DNA of 20,296 bases from a virus, in IMG/VR virus record IMGVR_UViG_3300028412_000030, positions 1 through 20,296 of that record. One strand, 5' to 3'. Positions within the stretch are counted from its first letter, which is position 1, and every line of letters starts with the position of its first letter. Positions 38-18,732 of the stretch are shown here, in pieces. The notes under the pieces are model-generated. The model was not told where the DNA came from. It saw nothing but the letters and a program-made list of their open reading frames with translations, and ran no database searches. A program made the position numbers and the translations under genes.

Positions 38-274
38 TTAGCCACGGTGCGCCGTGGCAAGGGTTTCATGGGGAAAGCGGGGCGCAGTCCCGAGATACAG
101 GCGCGCGGCCAGATCCTCGATCATCGTGTAGCGCGTAGGCACGCCCCAATGCCCCGAGGCAGGTGAGCGGCCCGCGATCATGCAGCCGACAAATGTTGTC
201 AGGCGGCCATTCTCATTGCGGTAGCGAGCCTTCGACCAGTTCACGATGCGGAGGTAGCGGTCTGACTTTTCCAT
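38..274 (-). CDS. Hypothetical 78-residue phage protein, leftward
   Basis: A small protein of unknown function on the minus strand. The ATG at 274-272 is preceded by AAGGA at 287-283 with an eight-base gap, a good ribosome site that fixes the start. The sequence has a mixed, globular-looking composition, with basic residues near the N-terminus and a central stretch containing GVPTRYTMIEDLA, rather than the Arg/Pro/Ala-rich look of antisense shadow frames. No signal peptide, membrane segment or recognised domain is visible. It ends 16 bases before the next leftward start, consistent with co-transcription. Because it is divergent from the late genes it may belong to an early or regulatory cluster; that is inference. 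It could still be a spurious frame, but two consecutive good ribosome sites argue against this. Confidence 0.6.
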   Translation of the reverse strand: MEKSDRYLRIVNWSKARYRNENGRLTTFVGCMIAGRSPASGHWGVPTRYTMIEDLAARLYLGTAPRFPHETLATAHRG

Positions 275-338: not shown

Positions 339-484
339 CCCTATAGTTGCAGAAAAATCCAATCAAATCAGGGCGCGTCAAACCAACTGAAAAGTTACGA
401 CGCACGAAAAACGTAGATATTTTTTCAAAACGACTGATTTCAGGCCCTTTGCAACCTGTTGATACTAAATGCCGATTTGAGGCT

Positions 485-521
485 GGGTTAAGGGTAGGGT
501 TAAGGGTAGGGTTAAGCCCTA
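485..521 (+). repeat. Telomere-like 12-mer direct repeat with five GGG runs
   Basis: The unit GGGTTAAGGGTA occurs at 485-496 and 497-508, and a third copy (GGGTTAAG) at 509-516 is cut short. The array has five GGG runs separated alternately by four and two bases, which meets the usual pattern for an intramolecular G-quadruplex. The truncated third copy runs into CCCTA, making an imperfect inverted repeat TAGGGTTAAGCCCTA at 507-521 that caps the array. Iterated sites next to a small terminase gene are a common form of packaging recognition site, but no function can be shown from sequence. Confidence 0.85.
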
Positions 522-527
522 GAGTCC

Positions 528-544
528 AGAAGCTAGAAGCTAGA
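528..544 (+). repeat. 7-mer direct repeat AGAAGCT, 2.4 copies
   Basis: AGAAGCT is repeated head to tail at 528-534 and 535-541 and followed by AGA at 542-544. It starts seven bases after the capped 12-mer array. The tetranucleotide CTAG, generally scarce in proteobacterial DNA, occurs three times nearby (519-522, 533-536 and 540-543), at spacings of 14 and 7 bases. Confidence 0.7.
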
Positions 545-547
545 TAT

Positions 548-573
548 GGTGGTGGTGGTGGTGACGCGCGCGT
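548..573 (+). repeat. (GGT)5 tract followed by a CG-alternating palindrome
   Basis: Five GGT triplets run from 548 to 562, directly followed by GACGCGCGCGTG, which contains the ten-base palindrome ACGCGCGCGT at 564-573. The GG pairs could form a two-tier quadruplex and the alternating purine-pyrimidine stretch is of the kind that can adopt Z-form. These structural possibilities are inferred from base pattern only. Confidence 0.65.
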
Positions 574-678
574 GAGACCACAACCCCTTGCGCTGTCGCC
601 GCATCGCTGGCTATCGACTGACGCCCCCGATTGTGCTATCTGATTGCCATTGCATCATTGTGCGACTGGACGAGTAGA

Positions 679-1548
679 ATGGCCCCCAAGAAACCCACGC
701 CGTCGAAATCAGAACGGACCAAGCACGCCAAGCGATATGCCCCGTCTGGATTGACCTGGGGCCGTGAGCGTTTCTGCCTCGAATACGTGAAAGACCACAA
801 CGGAGCCCGATCCGCACGAGACGCCGGATACAACAAGTCAGGGGCCCGAGCGATCGCCCATGAGCTTTTGACGTTCCACGACGTGAGGGGTCGCATCAGC
901 GAACTGGAAGGCGAGATCGCGCAGAAGCTCAGGATCGAACACCACGACGTCCTCAAGCGCCTCTGGGAAACCGCAACCGGCGACGTGAACGACATCGTCC
1001 GTGTCGAACGTCGATGCTGCCGTCACTGCTATGGCGAGCAACACGAATACCAGTGGCGCACCGAGCGCGAATACAAGCGCGCCGTCGACCAGTTCCTGAA
1101 ACACGAGTCTGGCGGCGATGTCCATGTGATGATCGAACTCGGCGAGAAGATCGACGCCGGCGGTCGCATCCCCAACATGCCCGAGAACGCCGGGGGCTAT
1201 GGGTTCGACGCCAGGCTCGAGCCGCATCCCGATTGCCCCGAGTGCAACGGCGAAGGCGTCGAGACCGTCCAGATATCCGACACCCGCGGCGCAGTCTCGC
1301 ATCCGCTCTACGATGGCGTGAAGCAGACCAAAGAAGGCATCGAGATCAAGATCGCCGACCGCGCCAAGGCCCTCGAGCACGTCGCCCGGCATCTCAAGTT
1401 CTTCAACGACAGCGTGGACCTGAACGTCAGCGAGGAACTGCTGCAGGCCGCGCGGAACATCAATGCCGCTTCACCGCCTCTCGACCCGAAGTATGCGCAG
1501 GCCAACCGCCACCGGCTGTTTCCCGAAGACCATGAGGATGGCGACTGA
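679..1548 (+). CDS. terS: Terminase small subunit with Cys-rich insertion
   Basis: Small subunit of the DNA-packaging terminase. It recognises phage DNA and brings it to the large subunit. The N-terminal part (about residues 30-100) has the helix-turn-helix style of the Terminase_2 family: FCLEYVKDHNGARSARDAGY, then conserved helices ending in KLRIEHHDVLKRL. The protein is 289 residues, longer than typical for the family, because of an insertion with cysteine pairs: C113, C114 and C117 in RCCRHCYGE, and C186/C189 in CPECNGEGVE, resembling a zinc ribbon. The C-terminal part (IADRAKALEHVARHLKFF) is the usual oligomerisation-type helix. I chose the ATG at 679 over an in-frame TTG at 631 because the extra residues look unlike protein of this family and GGACGAG lies at 668-674. 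It overlaps the next gene by one base and precedes terL by one gene, as expected. Confidence 0.88.
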   Translation: MAPKKPTPSKSERTKHAKRYAPSGLTWGRERFCLEYVKDHNGARSARDAGYNKSGARAIAHELLTFHDVRGRISELEGEIAQKLRIEHHDVLKRLWETATGDVNDIVRVERRCCRHCYGEQHEYQWRTEREYKRAVDQFLKHESGGDVHVMIELGEKIDAGGRIPNMPENAGGYGFDARLEPHPDCPECNGEGVETVQISDTRGAVSHPLYDGVKQTKEGIEIKIADRAKALEHVARHLKFFNDSVDLNVSEELLQAARNINAASPPLDPKYAQANRHRLFPEDHEDGD

Positions 1549-1883
1549 TGCGAGGCACGCGGGACCAGATCAACGAGGATTTCTGGCGTTTCCACGAGGC
1601 GCATCCCGAGGTCTACGCGTTCTTCGATCGCTTCACGCGCCAACTGCTGCGCGCAGGCTACGCCAACGGCTCGGCCAAGGCCGTATGCGAGCGCCTGAGA
1701 TGGGAAACCATGTTTGCGCCGTACACGGGGCGGGTGAAGCTCAACAACAACTACACGAGCCGCTATGCGCGCCTCTGGGAGCACAACAACCCGCAGCACA
1801 AGGGGTTCTTTCGCCAGCGCGCCCTCAATCCCGTCTCGGCCAACTCTGTGCGCGTGCCGCAGGATGAGCAGCGGCCAGGCTGA
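1548..1883 (+). CDS. Hypothetical protein between terminase subunits
   Basis: A 111-residue protein of unknown function. It is aromatic- and Arg/Asn-rich, with the pattern AVCERLRWETMF, then VKLNNNYTSRYARLWE and KGFFRQRALN. From memory of phage genomes, small proteins with this RW / NNxxxxYAR / FFxxR pattern occur beside terminases and nucleases in many phages, but no function is established that I can name. There is no membrane segment or signal peptide. The ATG overlaps the terS stop (TGATG), with GAGG at 1534-1537 as ribosome site, and its own stop overlaps the terL start, so the three are translationally coupled. The position suggests a packaging accessory role; that is inference. Confidence 0.8.
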   Translation: MRGTRDQINEDFWRFHEAHPEVYAFFDRFTRQLLRAGYANGSAKAVCERLRWETMFAPYTGRVKLNNNYTSRYARLWEHNNPQHKGFFRQRALNPVSANSVRVPQDEQRPG

Positions 1884-4348
1884 TGACCGTGCAGGCGCAT
1901 AAATCCCACCAAGGGGCTTTCCCCGCAGAGATCGAGGCGGCCGCAGACATTGCGCAGCTGCCCGATCCTCTGCCGATCGACTATGTGCCGCGCAACGACA
2001 CCGAGATGCTGGCCTGCCTCAAGGATCCCTTCTGGCGGATATGCTCAGGCCAGCTTTACAAGATCATGACCAAGGATGACGAGCACCAAGAAGGCGCCGT
2101 CATACCGTTCAAGCCGAACCTCGTGCAGCGCATGTTCCTCGCAGACCTGCACACGCGGAACGTGATTCTTAAAGCCCGTCAGATGGGGTTTTGTCTGGAT
2201 TGCGAAACGCGTGTTCTGACCGCCGATTTGCAGTGGGTCCGCATCGACACCCTTCAACCTGGTGACGAGGTCATTGGCGTCGATGAACATGTGCCAGGCG
2301 GCCGTGGCGCGGCCCGAAAGATGCGCACGGCAACGGTGCAAGCATGCAAAAAGGTTCGGCGCTACGGATATCGCGTCCAGTTTGCGGATGGCCGGGCAGT
2401 CGTTTGCACGGATCAACACCCATGGCTGGCTCGCAGTGGAGTGAAAAGGCAACCGTTCTGGCGGGCAATGGACCGGAAGGCGCCGAACGCAGAGCGCAAT
2501 CTAACCGTAGGGCATCAGGTGCGCTCTATCTGCGTGCCATGGGAAGCCGGACAGTTCGAAGATGGATGGTTTGGCGGCATGATTGATGGGGAAGGCAGTC
2601 TGTCGCTGCCGTCTCGGTCTGGTGCGTCGGTATGCGTGTCGCAGCGCCCCGGACCCGTATGGGATCGCATGGTCTCGTATGCGCAGGACAGGCAGTACCA
2701 CTATCGCATTGAACACGATGAAGGGCAGCGCGAGTCCAAGCACGGCACAACGCCGGTTCCCAAGCTGGTGTTCAGCCGCACGAATGAATTGTTTCGTCTG
2801 ATCGGAGAGACACGCCCGACGCGCGGATTGCAGCGCAGCTTCCGGTTTTGGGAGGGCAAGGAAATGCCCGGCAAGAGGAACATGGACAACGCCGCTTGGA
2901 ACGAGATCGTCTCCATCGAGCCGGTCGGTGAGGTCGACATGATCGCGCTGGAGACCAGCACCGGCACGTTCATCGCCGAGGGGATGGTCAGCCACAACAC
3001 GACGGTGATCGTGATCTCATTCACCGATCACGCCATCTTCAACGACAACCAGAGGTGCGGGATCATCGCGCAGTCGCTGCCGCATGCGGAATCGTTCTTC
3101 CGCGACAAGGCGAAGTTCGCTTACGACAACCTGCCGCAGATCGTGAAAGACCTCTATCCGATCCAGACGAGCAACACGAGCGAGATCCTTTTCAAGAACA
3201 ACTCGTCGATCCGCGTTGCCACGTCCATGCGGTCAGGCACGATCCACCGCCTGCACGTCTCGGAGATGGGCAAGATCGCCGCCGAGCATCCGGGCAAGGC
3301 CGTCGAGATCGTCACCGGTTCGCTGGCCGCAGTACCGGCATCGGGCATCGCCAGCATTGAAAGCACCGCAGAGGGGCAGGAAGGCGAGTTCCACAAGATA
3401 GCAACCCGCGCCGAGCGCCGCGCCCTCGATCCGCGCCCGCTTGCGCCGAAGGAAATGAAGTTTCACTTCTTCGCATGGCACGATCTGCCGGAATACCAGA
3501 CCGATCCGCGCCATGTGCGCATTGCGCCCGAATGGCACGATTACTTCGATCAGGTCGAGATCGAGCGCAACAAGCGCCTGATCCTGCCGCAGCGCGCCTG
3601 GTACATCATGACGCTCGAAAACGAGCAGAACGGCGACACCGAAAAGATGTGGCGGGAATACCCGTCGACGCCCGCCGAGTGCTGGCAGCAAAGCACGCAG
3701 GGCACATGGTACGCCCCGCAGATCGCTGCAGCGCGCGCGCAAGGCCGCATCTGCCAGATCCCACACGTCAACAACGTCCCTGTGCATACCTTCTGGGACA
3801 TCGGCGCAGGCGACGGCACGGGTATCTGGGCCATGCAGGACGTCGGCACGCGCCACCGCTTCATTCGCTACTTCGAGGATTGGGCGCAAGGCTACGGGCA
3901 TTTCGTGCGCCTGCTGCGCGAAACCGGCTGGAACTTCGGGGTGCATTACCTGCCGCACGACGCCAACCACGAGCGCCAGATGGAAAACCGCGTCGCCAGC
4001 CCGTTGATGCTGCTGCAGGAGATCGCCCCGGACTGGAATTTCCAGATCGTCCCGCGCGTCGATCACATCACCAACGGCATCCAGATGGTGCGCGACAAGT
4101 TCCCCGAAGCCTGGTTCAACGTCGATGGCTCGGGCGCAGACTGCGAAGCCGGGCTGAAACACGTCGAGCTCTACAAGAAGAAATGGAACGCGCGCCTTGG
4201 CGTGTTCTCGGACGAACCCGAAAAACTGGATGGACATTCCGAAGCCGCGGACGCGCTGCGCCAGTGGGCGCAAGGCTATGACCCTGCACTGTTCTCAGGT
4301 GCGACCCGGCCCAAGCGCCGGCGGCAAGGAGGCGCATTGACCGTATGA
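1883..4348 (+). CDS. terL: Terminase large subunit precursor containing an intein
   Basis: ATP-driven DNA-packaging motor and headful/cos nuclease. The 821-residue precursor has an intein at residues 104-372; removing it leaves 552 residues, a normal size. The N-extein ends KARQMGF and the C-extein resumes TTVIVISF, which rejoin into the ATP-binding loop ARQMGFTT. The Walker B-like segment is LHVSEMGK (residues 457-464, acidic Glu461), typical of this terminase branch. The C-terminal RNase H-like nuclease shows its acidic residues in FWDIGAGDG (Asp639), LPHDANHER (Asp693) and GHSEAADAL (His785, Asp790). The start overlaps the upstream stop (TGATG). The stop overlaps the next ATG. Without splicing the ATP-binding loop would be broken by 269 residues, so the motor should depend on the intein. 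The assignment is very secure; splicing activity is inferred from conserved residues. Confidence 0.95.
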   Translation: MTVQAHKSHQGAFPAEIEAAADIAQLPDPLPIDYVPRNDTEMLACLKDPFWRICSGQLYKIMTKDDEHQEGAVIPFKPNLVQRMFLADLHTRNVILKARQMGFCLDCETRVLTADLQWVRIDTLQPGDEVIGVDEHVPGGRGAARKMRTATVQACKKVRRYGYRVQFADGRAVVCTDQHPWLARSGVKRQPFWRAMDRKAPNAERNLTVGHQVRSICVPWEAGQFEDGWFGGMIDGEGSLSLPSRSGASVCVSQRPGPVWDRMVSYAQDRQYHYRIEHDEGQRESKHGTTPVPKLVFSRTNELFRLIGETRPTRGLQRSFRFWEGKEMPGKRNMDNAAWNEIVSIEPVGEVDMIALETSTGTFIAEGMVSHNTTVIVISFTDHAIFNDNQRCGIIAQSLPHAESFFRDKAKFAYDNLPQIVKDLYPIQTSNTSEILFKNNSSIRVATSMRSGTIHRLHVSEMGKIAAEHPGKAVEIVTGSLAAVPASGIASIESTAEGQEGEFHKIATRAERRALDPRPLAPKEMKFHFFAWHDLPEYQTDPRHVRIAPEWHDYFDQVEIERNKRLILPQRAWYIMTLENEQNGDTEKMWREYPSTPAECWQQSTQGTWYAPQIAAARAQGRICQIPHVNNVPVHTFWDIGAGDGTGIWAMQDVGTRHRFIRYFEDWAQGYGHFVRLLRETGWNFGVHYLPHDANHERQMENRVASPLMLLQEIAPDWNFQIVPRVDHITNGIQMVRDKFPEAWFNVDGSGADCEAGLKHVELYKKKWNARLGVFSDEPEKLDGHSEAADALRQWAQGYDPALFSGATRPKRRRQGGALTV
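2192..2998 (+). mobile_element. Intein in terL with a LAGLIDADG-type endonuclease remnant
   Basis: A 269-residue in-frame protein-splicing element (precursor residues 104-372). Splicing block A is CLDCETRVLTADL with Cys1; block B is CTDQHPWL with the TxxH pair Thr176 and His179; block F/G is the run ending FIAEGMVSHN, with penultimate His and terminal Asn; the +1 extein residue is Thr. All residues needed for a class 1 intein are therefore present. Between blocks B and F lies about 150 residues with one clear LAGLIDADG-like motif, GGMIDGEGS (acidic Asp235 and Glu237), followed by VCVSQRPGPVWDRM. I see no clear second motif, so the homing enzyme may be a single-motif type or decayed. Base composition looks less GC-biased than the exteins by eye, which fits acquisition by homing. 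Confidence 0.93.
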
Positions 4349-4782: not shown

Positions 4783-7114
4783 AACCGAAGATCAGCCCGA
4801 GAACCGCAATCACATCACGTCCAGGCGGAAGCGCAATGCCGATCCGCTCGACCGCATGGATTTCGGCGGCGGCATTGACGAGAAGCGCGTCCAGCGCCTC
4901 GGGAAGTCCAAGGATCTCGACAGCCCGCGCGCCCGCGATCTCTTCACCAATTTCATGGGGCATTACCGGCGCGAGATCGAGCGCCAGGGCGAGAACCGCA
5001 ACGAAATGGGGCTCGACGAGGATTTCTACGACGGCGACCAGTGGGACGCGGAAGACAAGGCGACGCTCGAGGCCCGCGGCCAGCACCCTCTGGTCTACAA
5101 CGTCATCTCGACCACTGTGAACTGGATGCTGGGCACCGAAAAGCGGGGCCGCACGGATTACAAGATCCTGCCCCGGCGCGAGGAAGGCGGCAAAGCAGCC
5201 GAGCGCAAGAGCCAGCTTCTCAAGTACCTGTCCGACGTCAACAAGTCAGAGTTCCATGTCAGCCGCGCGTTCAAGGATACCGTAATCCCCGGGCTTGGCT
5301 GGATCGAGTCCGGCATCCAGGAGGATGACGAGGGCGAAGCGATCTATGACCGCTACGAAACATGGCGGAACATGATCTATGACAGCATGGCGACCGAGAT
5401 GGACCTGTCCGATGGCCGGTATCTTTTTCGGACCAAATGGGTCGATGTCGATATCGCCAAGACCATGTTTCCCGAGCGCAAGGCAGTCATTGACCGATCG
5501 GCCAGCACGGCGCTGACCTATACCGCCAGCCTCGACGGCGCCGGGGATGAGCAGATGGACGCCGCCGAAGAAGAATGGAGCCACACCAACGTCCATGGCG
5601 GCTATGACGGGCATATCTCGGAGCGCGCGCGTGTCCGCTTGATCGAGGGCTGGGTGCGCATCCCGACCGAAGAGCGGTTCATGCGCGGCGGGCAATTCGG
5701 CGGTGAGATATTCGACCCGCGCAGCCGCGGCCACCGCGCCGAGATCGAGCGCAACCGCGCATCGGTGCTGACCAAGGTGCGCATGCGCATGCATGTGGTC
5801 ATCATGGCCGAGGATGGCTTGCTCTACATGGCAAAGAGCCCATACCGCCACAACCAGTTCCCGTTCACGCCGATCTGGTGCTACCGCCGCGGCAAGAACA
5901 ACCTGCCATATGGCGTGGTGCGCGCGATGCGCGGGCCGCAGGAGGATATTAACAAGCGCGCGTCCAAGGCCCTGCATATCCTGTCCAGCAACAAGACCGT
6001 GATGGACAAGGGCGCCGTCGACGATCTCGACGAGTTCCAGGAAGAGATCGCCCGCGCCGACGCGACCATCGTGAAGAATCCGGGCAAGTATCTGGAGTTC
6101 AATGTCGACCGCGAGCTTGCCCCCGCGCATCTTGACCTCATGAGCCGGTCGATCGAGATGATCCAGCAGCTATCCGGGATCACCGACGAGAACCTTGGCC
6201 GCACCACCAACGCCACCTCGGGCAAGGCAATCATCGCGCGTCAGGATCAGGGGTCGCTGGCCACCGCGTCGATCTTCGACAACCTGCGGCTCGCCCGGCA
6301 GGCGCACGGGGCCAAGATGCTGTCTCTCGTCGAGCAGTTCATGTCGGAGGAACGCCAGTTCCGCATCACCAACATGCGCGGCAACCCGGAGTTTCCCAAG
6401 GTCAACGAGATGGACCCGGAGACCGGCGCCATCCTGCCCGAAAGCGATATCGTCAGAACCAAGGCCGACTTCATCATCAGTGAGGAAGACTGGAAGGCCA
6501 CCATGCGCCAATCGCAGGTCGACCAGCTGATCGAGTTCATGACGCAACTCGGGTCAGTGAGCCCGGAACTGGTCATGTCGTTGCTCGATCTCGTCGTCGA
6601 AGTGATGGACCTGCCGCAGCAGGAAGAACTGGTGAAGCGAATCCGCAAGATCACCGGGCAGGAAGACCCCGACGCCGATCCGAACAACCCCGACGAGGAA
6701 ACCATCAAGCGGAACCAGCAGAAAGAGGCCGAGGCCGAGATGCAAGGCCGCCTTGCCAATGCCGAGGTCGAGACCAAGGAGGCCGAGGCGAAGAAGAAGG
6801 CTGCCGAAGCCGAAAAGACCGGGGCCGAGGGCGCCAAGGTCATCGCCAACATTCGCGAGATCCTTTCGAAAGTCGCCGGTCAGAACGTCGAGACGCAGAT
6901 CAAGGCGATGGAGGCCGCCGCACAGATCCTCGGTTCGCCCGCGCTCAACAGCGTGGCCGACAGCGTGCTGGACGAGTCCGGGTATCAGCCCGGGCCCGCC
7001 GGGCAGGGACAAGGCGCCCCGATGTCCCAACCGCCTCAACCCGCGCCGCAGCCGGCACCGCAGCAGATGCAGCCGCCTGCCCCGCAACCCGCCGACCCGA
7101 TGGGCACCTACTAG
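4775..7114 (+). CDS. Portal protein, P22-like
   Basis: Forms the dodecameric ring at one head vertex through which DNA enters and leaves and to which the tail attaches. The 779-residue protein has hallmarks of the P22-like portal family: an early FYDGDQW element (about residue 87), then HPLVYNVISTTVNWMLGTEK followed by RTDYKILPR, and a later QQLSGITDENLGR segment. The size fits the larger P22-type portals. Residues about 640-700 are rich in Ala, Glu and Lys and should form the long alpha-helical barrel/coiled coil seen in P22. The last 40 residues are a Pro/Gln-rich low-complexity tail. GGAG at 4761-4764 precedes the ATG. It lies downstream of terL and upstream of the scaffold, the standard order. 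Confidence 0.92.
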   Translation: MFETEDQPENRNHITSRRKRNADPLDRMDFGGGIDEKRVQRLGKSKDLDSPRARDLFTNFMGHYRREIERQGENRNEMGLDEDFYDGDQWDAEDKATLEARGQHPLVYNVISTTVNWMLGTEKRGRTDYKILPRREEGGKAAERKSQLLKYLSDVNKSEFHVSRAFKDTVIPGLGWIESGIQEDDEGEAIYDRYETWRNMIYDSMATEMDLSDGRYLFRTKWVDVDIAKTMFPERKAVIDRSASTALTYTASLDGAGDEQMDAAEEEWSHTNVHGGYDGHISERARVRLIEGWVRIPTEERFMRGGQFGGEIFDPRSRGHRAEIERNRASVLTKVRMRMHVVIMAEDGLLYMAKSPYRHNQFPFTPIWCYRRGKNNLPYGVVRAMRGPQEDINKRASKALHILSSNKTVMDKGAVDDLDEFQEEIARADATIVKNPGKYLEFNVDRELAPAHLDLMSRSIEMIQQLSGITDENLGRTTNATSGKAIIARQDQGSLATASIFDNLRLARQAHGAKMLSLVEQFMSEERQFRITNMRGNPEFPKVNEMDPETGAILPESDIVRTKADFIISEEDWKATMRQSQVDQLIEFMTQLGSVSPELVMSLLDLVVEVMDLPQQEELVKRIRKITGQEDPDADPNNPDEETIKRNQQKEAEAEMQGRLANAEVETKEAEAKKKAAEAEKTGAEGAKVIANIREILSKVAGQNVETQIKAMEAAAQILGSPALNSVADSVLDESGYQPGPAGQGQGAPMSQPPQPAPQPAPQQMQPPAPQPADPMGTY

Positions 7115-17581: not shown

Positions 17582-18106
17582 ATGCTGATTTACTATGCCT
17601 CGGACAACGGGAATGTTCTGTTCACAGTCGACGGCGACCCGGACGCGCCGCCGCCGGGTGATTACATCAACGTACCCGACGACACGCCGATCACCCCTCT
17701 GGAAGCGTTTGAAGTGTCCGGTGGGGCGCTTTTCGACCGCGTAGTGCCGGTGATGCCCGACCATGTGGATGCAGAGATTGAGCGACGCTTGCGCATGGGT
17801 ACGGGAATTGCCGTAACGGGTATTGGCGACATTCCGGTGCAGGGCCGCGATCGGGACATGGCCATATTCCCCAACCTGCGGGACAGCGCGAAGGAATTGC
17901 AGGAAGCCGGCATAACGGCCGCTGTCCTGCCCTTTCGCGACCGGGACAATGTCACGCACATGCTGACGCCGACGCAGATGCTGGAACTGGTCTCGGGTGC
18001 GCGCATGGCAGCGCAGGCGCTTTACAGCGCAATGTGGGATCTCAAGGACGCCAACCCGATACCGCAAGATTACACCGATGACAGCTACTGGCCGGTTTCA
18101 TCCTGA
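17582..18106 (+). CDS. DUF4376-like fibre-associated protein
   Basis: A 174-residue protein directly after the fibre gene. The C-terminal part shows the DUF4376-type pattern: VDAEIERRLRMG, then IPVQGRDRDMAIFPNL, VLPFRDRDNVTHMLTPTQML and the ending WDLKDANPIPQDYTDDSYWP. The N-terminal third (MLIYYASDNGNVLFTVDGDP) is beta-like. Proteins of this kind commonly follow tail fibre genes and are thought to help fibre assembly or to form part of the tail; the molecular role is not established. It starts three bases after the fibre stop and its own stop overlaps the next ATG (TGATG), so translation is coupled on its downstream side. Confidence 0.75.
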   Translation: MLIYYASDNGNVLFTVDGDPDAPPPGDYINVPDDTPITPLEAFEVSGGALFDRVVPVMPDHVDAEIERRLRMGTGIAVTGIGDIPVQGRDRDMAIFPNLRDSAKELQEAGITAAVLPFRDRDNVTHMLTPTQMLELVSGARMAAQALYSAMWDLKDANPIPQDYTDDSYWPVSS

Positions 18107-18732
18107 TGCAGCTCGCGTGCCGTCTTCTCATGTTTTCCGGGGGTCTGGATAGCACATACGTCCTCAAGAAGTTCCTGACGGAAACTGACGGCGTCATCTG
18201 CGTGCATCACATTCACTTGGCAAACCCGGATCGCAGGGGCGAGGCCGAAACCAAAGCCTGCCAAGCCATCATCGACTATTGCAAAGCCAATTATCGCACG
18301 TTTTTCTACAGCGAATCCAACATCGACCGAACCGGCATGACAGGTTTTTTCGGGTTCGACGTGATGACCGTCTCTTTCGAAGCCGGAATCGCCGCGGTCA
18401 ATTTCAAGAACACAATGGGCGTCATGCCGACAGAATGGTACTTTGGCGAGTGCCTTGAAGATCTCGACAGCCCGTACCAGAAGATGAAGAACCGGGCCCA
18501 TTGCTTGAGGTCAGCCATGCAGGCCGGATGCTGGCCCGAGAAACCGCCGCAGCTGAAAACGATTCCTTGGCCGACGAAATTGCAAACCATGCAATACCTC
18601 GCGCCCGACCTGGTCGATATGTGCTGGACGTGCCGCAATCCCAGGTCGTCAATCACTGGCCGCTACGGCTTTCGCGAGTGTGGCCGCTGCCATACCTGCA
18701 AGATGGTCAATTCCACGAGACGCGACCTGTAA
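18106..18732 (+). CDS. QueC-like PP-loop ATPase (7-cyano-7-deazaguanine synthase-like)
   Basis: A 208-residue enzyme of the PP-loop ATP pyrophosphatase superfamily. The ATP-binding loop FSGGLDST is at residues 10-17, close to the N-terminus as in QueC. The C-terminus has a zinc-type cysteine cluster, C173 and C176 in CWTCRNP and C192, C195 and C198 in ECGRCHTC, matching the QueC-style CxxCxxC plus an upstream cysteine. QueC converts carboxy-deazaguanine to preQ0, the precursor of queuosine and of 7-deazaguanine DNA modifications found in several phages. The middle is diverged, so the substrate may differ. It is translationally coupled to the tail gene before it. No queD, queE, folE or DNA transglycosylase gene is in the window, so a pathway cannot be shown here. 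Confidence 0.75.
   Translation: MQLACRLLMFSGGLDSTYVLKKFLTETDGVICVHHIHLANPDRRGEAETKACQAIIDYCKANYRTFFYSESNIDRTGMTGFFGFDVMTVSFEAGIAAVNFKNTMGVMPTEWYFGECLEDLDSPYQKMKNRAHCLRSAMQAGCWPEKPPQLKTIPWPTKLQTMQYLAPDLVDMCWTCRNPRSSITGRYGFRECGRCHTCKMVNSTRRDL

Follow-up and report, generated by a model that had tools for sequence, protein, structure and literature searches.

A non-coding copy of an initiator-gene element precedes the small terminase gene of a phage

The repeat array just upstream of the small terminase gene of this phage is, by sequence comparison, a non-coding copy of a DNA element that lies within the phage's own replication-initiator gene, which makes it most likely a second place for the replication protein to bind, shortly ahead of the packaging genes. 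The window, that is the whole stretch of DNA analyzed, is a virus record of 20,296 bases that holds, in order, a short non-coding region, terS, terL (with an intein), and portal, head and tail genes. We think it rather probable that positions 485–573, together with an A+T-rich flank at 281–480, form a non-coding second copy of a replication-origin element, acting as a late origin or as a fork barrier.

The terS-upstream element

Tandem Repeats Finder, run on the window, reported 2.7 copies of a 12-bp period at 485–516 with 100% match. The letters are GGGTTAAGGGTA at 485–496 and again at 497–508, GGGTTAAG at 509–516, and then CCCTA up to 521; five GGG runs are present, and the inverted repeat TAGGG-TTAAG-CCCTA occupies 507–521. 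An earlier note made from the letters had described this array, its five GGG runs and its inverted repeat, all of which were borne out. The array 12-mer, with up to two mismatches allowed, is seen three times in the window against 0.21 expected per shuffled window. On the plus strand, 485–521 can be laid out as three 12-bp iterons, GGTTAAGGGTAG, GGTTAAGGGTAG and GGTTAAGCCCTA, with cores at 486, 498 and 510, whose spacing and core match those of the Rep-gene linkers described below. Two further plus-strand parts of the same element were overlooked in the earlier note: 7-bp repeats at 521–544 (AGAGTCC AGAAGCT AGAAGCT AGA), the counterpart of the CCAGAAG module of Rep-gene linkers, and a TGG run (547–563) followed by GACGCG (547–573 overall), also present in the Rep-gene linker of the same phage.

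The A+T-rich stretch at 281–480 adjoins the iterons, has 33–45% GC against 62% for the window, and is among the lowest-GC 80-bp windows of our ~45 kb map; it may serve as an unwinding element. The surroundings had been called AT-rich, which holds for this upstream side and fails downstream, where 561–640 has 60–70% GC. Just upstream of the stretch, variants of the same phage differ by an indel of about 470 bp (window 262–272 vs. 4124–4592 of contig L005). Within it, the inverted repeat ATTGCAGGATGCAATATA (304–321) is a possible operator; it is 18/18 identical in the related phage L370 (5607–5624), at the corresponding place at the far end of the intergenic region.

The first late-region gene is terS (679–1548, plus strand; phrog_51 at 2.6e-35, Pfam Terminase_2 at 6.3e-27), whose start, ATG at 679, lies 162 bp beyond array position 516, in agreement with the figure of about 160 bases given before. 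An open reading frame at 347–643 that spans the array was considered as a gene and rejected, substitutions being spread over all codon positions with no coding signal. Elsewhere in the window, the terL intein is in-frame (1883–4348, TerL residues about 103–372; NCBIfam intein model at 1e-17 over residues 103–372), while L370 TerL has no intein, and the product of 18106–18732 is QueC-like (phrog_1550, 3e-13; NCBIfam QueC, weak) and could be tied to DNA or tRNA base modification.

Other contigs of the phage and its Rep protein

The array is unchanged in two further contigs that belong to this phage, their TerS being 100% identical; a third begins too late to cover it. Three near-identical contigs differ at too few positions for the constancy of the array to be significant (P = 0.28). 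The longer of the two contigs with the array, G001 (29,168 bases), reaches about 26 kb upstream of terS, so that the left arm becomes visible. There it encodes a RecT recombinase, an exonuclease-family protein and a DUF1064/Holliday-resolvase-family protein, and directly after the gene for the last of these comes that of a 310-aa protein, here called Rep.

Over 127 residues Rep shares 40% identity with a protein labelled in PHROGs as a replication initiation protein, and Rep itself has a weak “replisome organizer” PHROG match (E 0.0068). In both Pseudanabaena phage Pam1 and Paracoccus phage Pkon1, the gene of a Rep homologue comes immediately after that of the replicative helicase. The N-terminal part of Rep is predicted confidently (pLDDT 88–98, residues 11–110), and the best fold matches of this predicted domain are plasmid replication initiators (PDB 4pta, 5kbj and 4pql), one of them a Rep-DNA complex. 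With E-values of 3e-3 to 1.1e-2 and TM-scores below 0.5, these matches are suggestive of a weak resemblance in fold to the iteron-binding initiators of plasmids, not of membership in their family.

The element as a copy of the Rep-gene linker

In G001 the Rep gene, 6.9 kb upstream of the array, contains the same composite. The Rep-gene linker reads GGCTGGGATAACCCAAGGGATAACCCCGAGGTTAAGCCCCAGAAGCCAGAGTCCAGAGTCCAGAAGGTTGGTGGTGGTGGTGACGCG and its window counterpart GGCTGGGTTAAGGGTAGGGTTAAGGGTAGGGTTAAGCCCTAGAGTCCAGAAGCTAGAAGCTAGATATGGTGGTGGTGGTGGTGACGCG, and the two are collinear throughout: three GG(A/T)TAA units at 12-bp spacing, GGTTAAGCCC, the 7-mers, the TGG run and GACGCG. When window 481–575 was aligned locally to the ~45 kb map, the best match was the Rep-gene linker, with a score of 59 against 25 at the next place, and none of 5000 dinucleotide shuffles reached 59. 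With the TGG run removed, the score was 29, reached by 2 of 5000 shuffles, and the linker was still the best place. Tiling of the map gave the window-linker pair as the strongest self-match, once tiles at the splice of two contig variants were set aside. The viral collection has seven stretches with the exact 20-mer, of which two come from this phage and the other five fall within the Rep-gene linkers of other phages.

A second lineage

Among distinct phages the nearest is L370 (TerS 60%, portal 73% identical), whose Rep belongs to another family, DUF1376. The GGWTAA array was not found in its terS-upstream region. When that region was compared with about 18 kb of L370 DNA upstream of terS, its best self-match was the Rep linker of L370, with a score of 54 against a null maximum of 35. 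In the viral collection the core 17-mer is confined to five stretches; two of them are the L370 Rep gene and the L370 terS-upstream site, and a third is the DUF1376 Rep linker of another phage. The two elements have the same orientation; counted from terS, that of L370 spans −214 to −147 and that of the window about −198 to −106. Thus each phage has upstream of terS an element matching its own type of Rep, so that a difference in Rep type goes with a difference in the element at this orthologous place. Alignment of related phages, which had been proposed as a check on the array, accordingly gave two answers: the array is kept exactly in two contigs of the same phage, and L370 has an element of different sequence.

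The L370 terS-upstream element is 62/68 identical to the DUF1376 linker of another phage and 38/44 to its own linker, so the history of this copy includes exchange. This could be taken to mean that such copies are recombination scars, Rep-gene fragments left behind by module exchange and now functionless, and the second copy is indeed missing from most of the Rep-family phages sampled, so it is not essential in general. A scar seems unlikely to us, as two related phages with differing linker types have the copy at the same place in the same orientation, and as three iterons stand in exact 12-bp register where no coding constraint holds them, the frame at 347–643 having no coding signal. The arrangement is known from these two lineages only.

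Association with Rep rather than TerS

A scan for GGWTAAN6GGWTAA covered 50 whole contigs, of which 49 had been selected by Rep or its linker and one is a fragment of this phage; the pattern was found in 39 (reversed control, 0). Within each contig the matches cluster at the Rep gene; this phage alone has a second cluster, 6.9 kb away. A relative of TerS, and a weak one, is present in only one of the 50. Conversely, at 28 loci with TerS relatives (some of them redundant), neither iterons nor a G4 motif were found upstream of terS in any.

SPP1 and other headful phages have pac sites near terS, and an iterated sequence to which TerS binds to start packaging was the use to which the array had first been put, as a packaging or replication mark. 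TerS of the Terminase_2 family and an array 162 bp before its gene are what such a site would lead one to expect, and TerS-bound pac sites are likewise iterated sequences close to terS. Here the sequence goes with the Rep family and not with the TerS family, as seen from the 0 of 28 TerS loci set against the 39 of 50 contigs chosen by Rep. A pac site at the array is therefore highly improbable, and it is the replication half of the proposed mark that survives; a pac site may still lie elsewhere in the region. Absence of the array from related phages, named beforehand as the outcome that would speak against terminase binding, is what was observed among these TerS relatives.

In other TerS relatives, Roseovarius prophages among them, the DNA upstream of terS did not match a Rep linker significantly; a TerS match was lacking in five of the regions fetched. 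Self-matches above the null were found in this test for L406 and L411, neither of them in a recognizable Rep gene. For R. halotolerans the Rep could not be compared, because the DNA upstream of terS resembles host genes. Its prophage (L037) has CATAGTCATAGTCATA repeats and a hairpin, AGATACCTTCGGTATCT, upstream of terS at about 4831–4870, a layout that resembles the window element; a matching Rep gene is absent from the contig.

The G-runs of the array had suggested a telomere-like repeat with quadruplex potential. The five GGG runs do fit the canonical motif, the only such motifs in the window starting at 485 and 492, and the short inverted repeat at 507–521 could form a hairpin. An element acting through G-runs or through RNA structure is nevertheless hardly credible. 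The canonical G-strand motif is present in only 3 of 56 initiator linkers and absent from the other 53 and from the phage's own Rep linker, so that the quadruplex potential seems incidental to the G-rich make-up of the iterons; the RNA folds no better than shuffled sequences do (z 0.13), and there is no terminator and no Rfam match. The likeness to telomeres appears coincidental on present evidence.

Selection on Rep-gene linkers

We collected 80 Rep-family loci and applied a synonymous-codon test to 50 linkers, the null being obtained by swapping codons for synonymous ones at each phage's own usage. GGWTAA pairs at 12-bp spacing numbered 53 (1.7 expected), occurrences of GGWTAAS 98 (14.6 expected) and those of CCAGA 158 (43 expected). 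This excess of iterons and CCAGA over the synonymous expectation indicates selection on the DNA itself, as for an in-gene origin like that of lambda. In 21 of 48 cases, against 5 expected, the 7-mers are followed by a hairpin whose stem is 6 or longer.

In many replication genes of phages the 7-mer module also stands behind quite different iterons, among them GTTCAACGG, CCTAATAGG and GTCACG. The resulting picture is of a modular origin-like element, in which variable iterons are followed by CCAGAAG 7-mers and often by a hairpin (L050–L102, L131–L208, L419 at 33873, L420 at 12993). A limited text search of the literature gave, among the results listed, no phage paper describing the CCAGAAG module. 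Pam1 and Pkon1 have the 7-mer module within the Rep gene, and no second copy of 7-mers or iterons near terS. A triple-iteron scan of viral contigs gave, among the matches listed, many simple hexamer or DnaA-box-like repeats. Tandem TGTGGATAACTC at 12-bp spacing, like the DnaA box complement (TTATCCACA), was noted in L249, L251, L253, L263, L265 and others, several of these repeats lying inside replication-type open frames of other phages.

Comparison with known origins

Phage SPP1 has two origins whose direct repeats are bound by gp38: oriL, which lies within gene 38, and oriR, 12–13 kb away in a late segment that is non-coding; an A+T-rich region is found at both (PMC6316719, PMC3485210). According to the current model, the fork is stalled by gp38 at oriR, after which concatemer synthesis is initiated by recombination proteins (PMC6316719, PMC3485210). 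Our phage shares with SPP1 direct repeats within the initiator gene, a second, non-coding copy in the late region, and encoded recombination proteins; an A+T-rich region beside the repeats is clear at the non-coding copy (281–480). It differs in its iterons and host group, in the 6.9 kb between copies, and in the placing of the second copy about 160–200 bp before terS. The likeness is one of layout, and does not establish kinship of Rep to gp38. In lambda, ori consists of tandem iterons in the linker of initiator gene O (PMC7466680). The Rep-gene copy here likewise has tandem iterons in the initiator-gene linker, conserved as DNA; lambda has four longer iterons and an in-gene A+T-rich tract, whereas here there are CCAGAAG 7-mers and, besides, a second non-coding copy.

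Given this SPP1-like anatomy and comparable recombination proteins, we read 281–573 as a second Rep-binding origin or fork barrier. We count in favor the RecT, exonuclease-family and Holliday-resolvase-family proteins of the left arm, the A+T-rich flank and the weak plasmid-initiator fold of Rep. The first origin copy would be that inside the Rep gene, 6.9 kb upstream, as lambda ori is in gene O, and Rep would bind the three 12-bp GGWTAA iterons. The copy where the late genes begin would then act as a late origin or a Rep-bound fork barrier, and we infer that, in the manner proposed for SPP1 oriR, it may switch replication from the theta mode to the formation of concatemers next to the packaging genes. 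The cumulative GC skew at the site is near its maximum and not its minimum, and so does not favor an origin there.

The same copy evidence would serve a regulatory site, with iterons in the late-operon leader by which Rep times terS and late transcription to replication and no origin activity. In two lineages the element precedes the first late gene by about 160–200 bp, a position that would suit such a role. This is possible but rather unlikely: a scan limited to the sigma-70 type found no promoter-like site, and the whole composite of 7-mers and A+T-rich flank exceeds what a simple operator needs.

Implications

A wider proposal, which we put forward as possible though doubtful, is that this phage group keeps a Rep-matched second origin immediately upstream of terS, swapped together with Rep, which would tie the switch to concatemers to the start of packaging. 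The element would then follow a widespread and apparently undescribed grammar, in which initiator-specific iterons precede a constant CCAGAAG module, which would serve unrelated phage initiators as a common site of landing or unwinding, and then often a hairpin. The constant 7-mer module with its interchangeable iterons may help to locate origins where initiators are annotated only as hypothetical or DUF1376. If the second-origin reading is true, a proteobacterial-type phage would join SPP1 in having one origin within a gene and another in the late region, the latter here adjoining the terminase gene, and the phage switch from circle-to-circle to concatemer replication would become testable in a second system.
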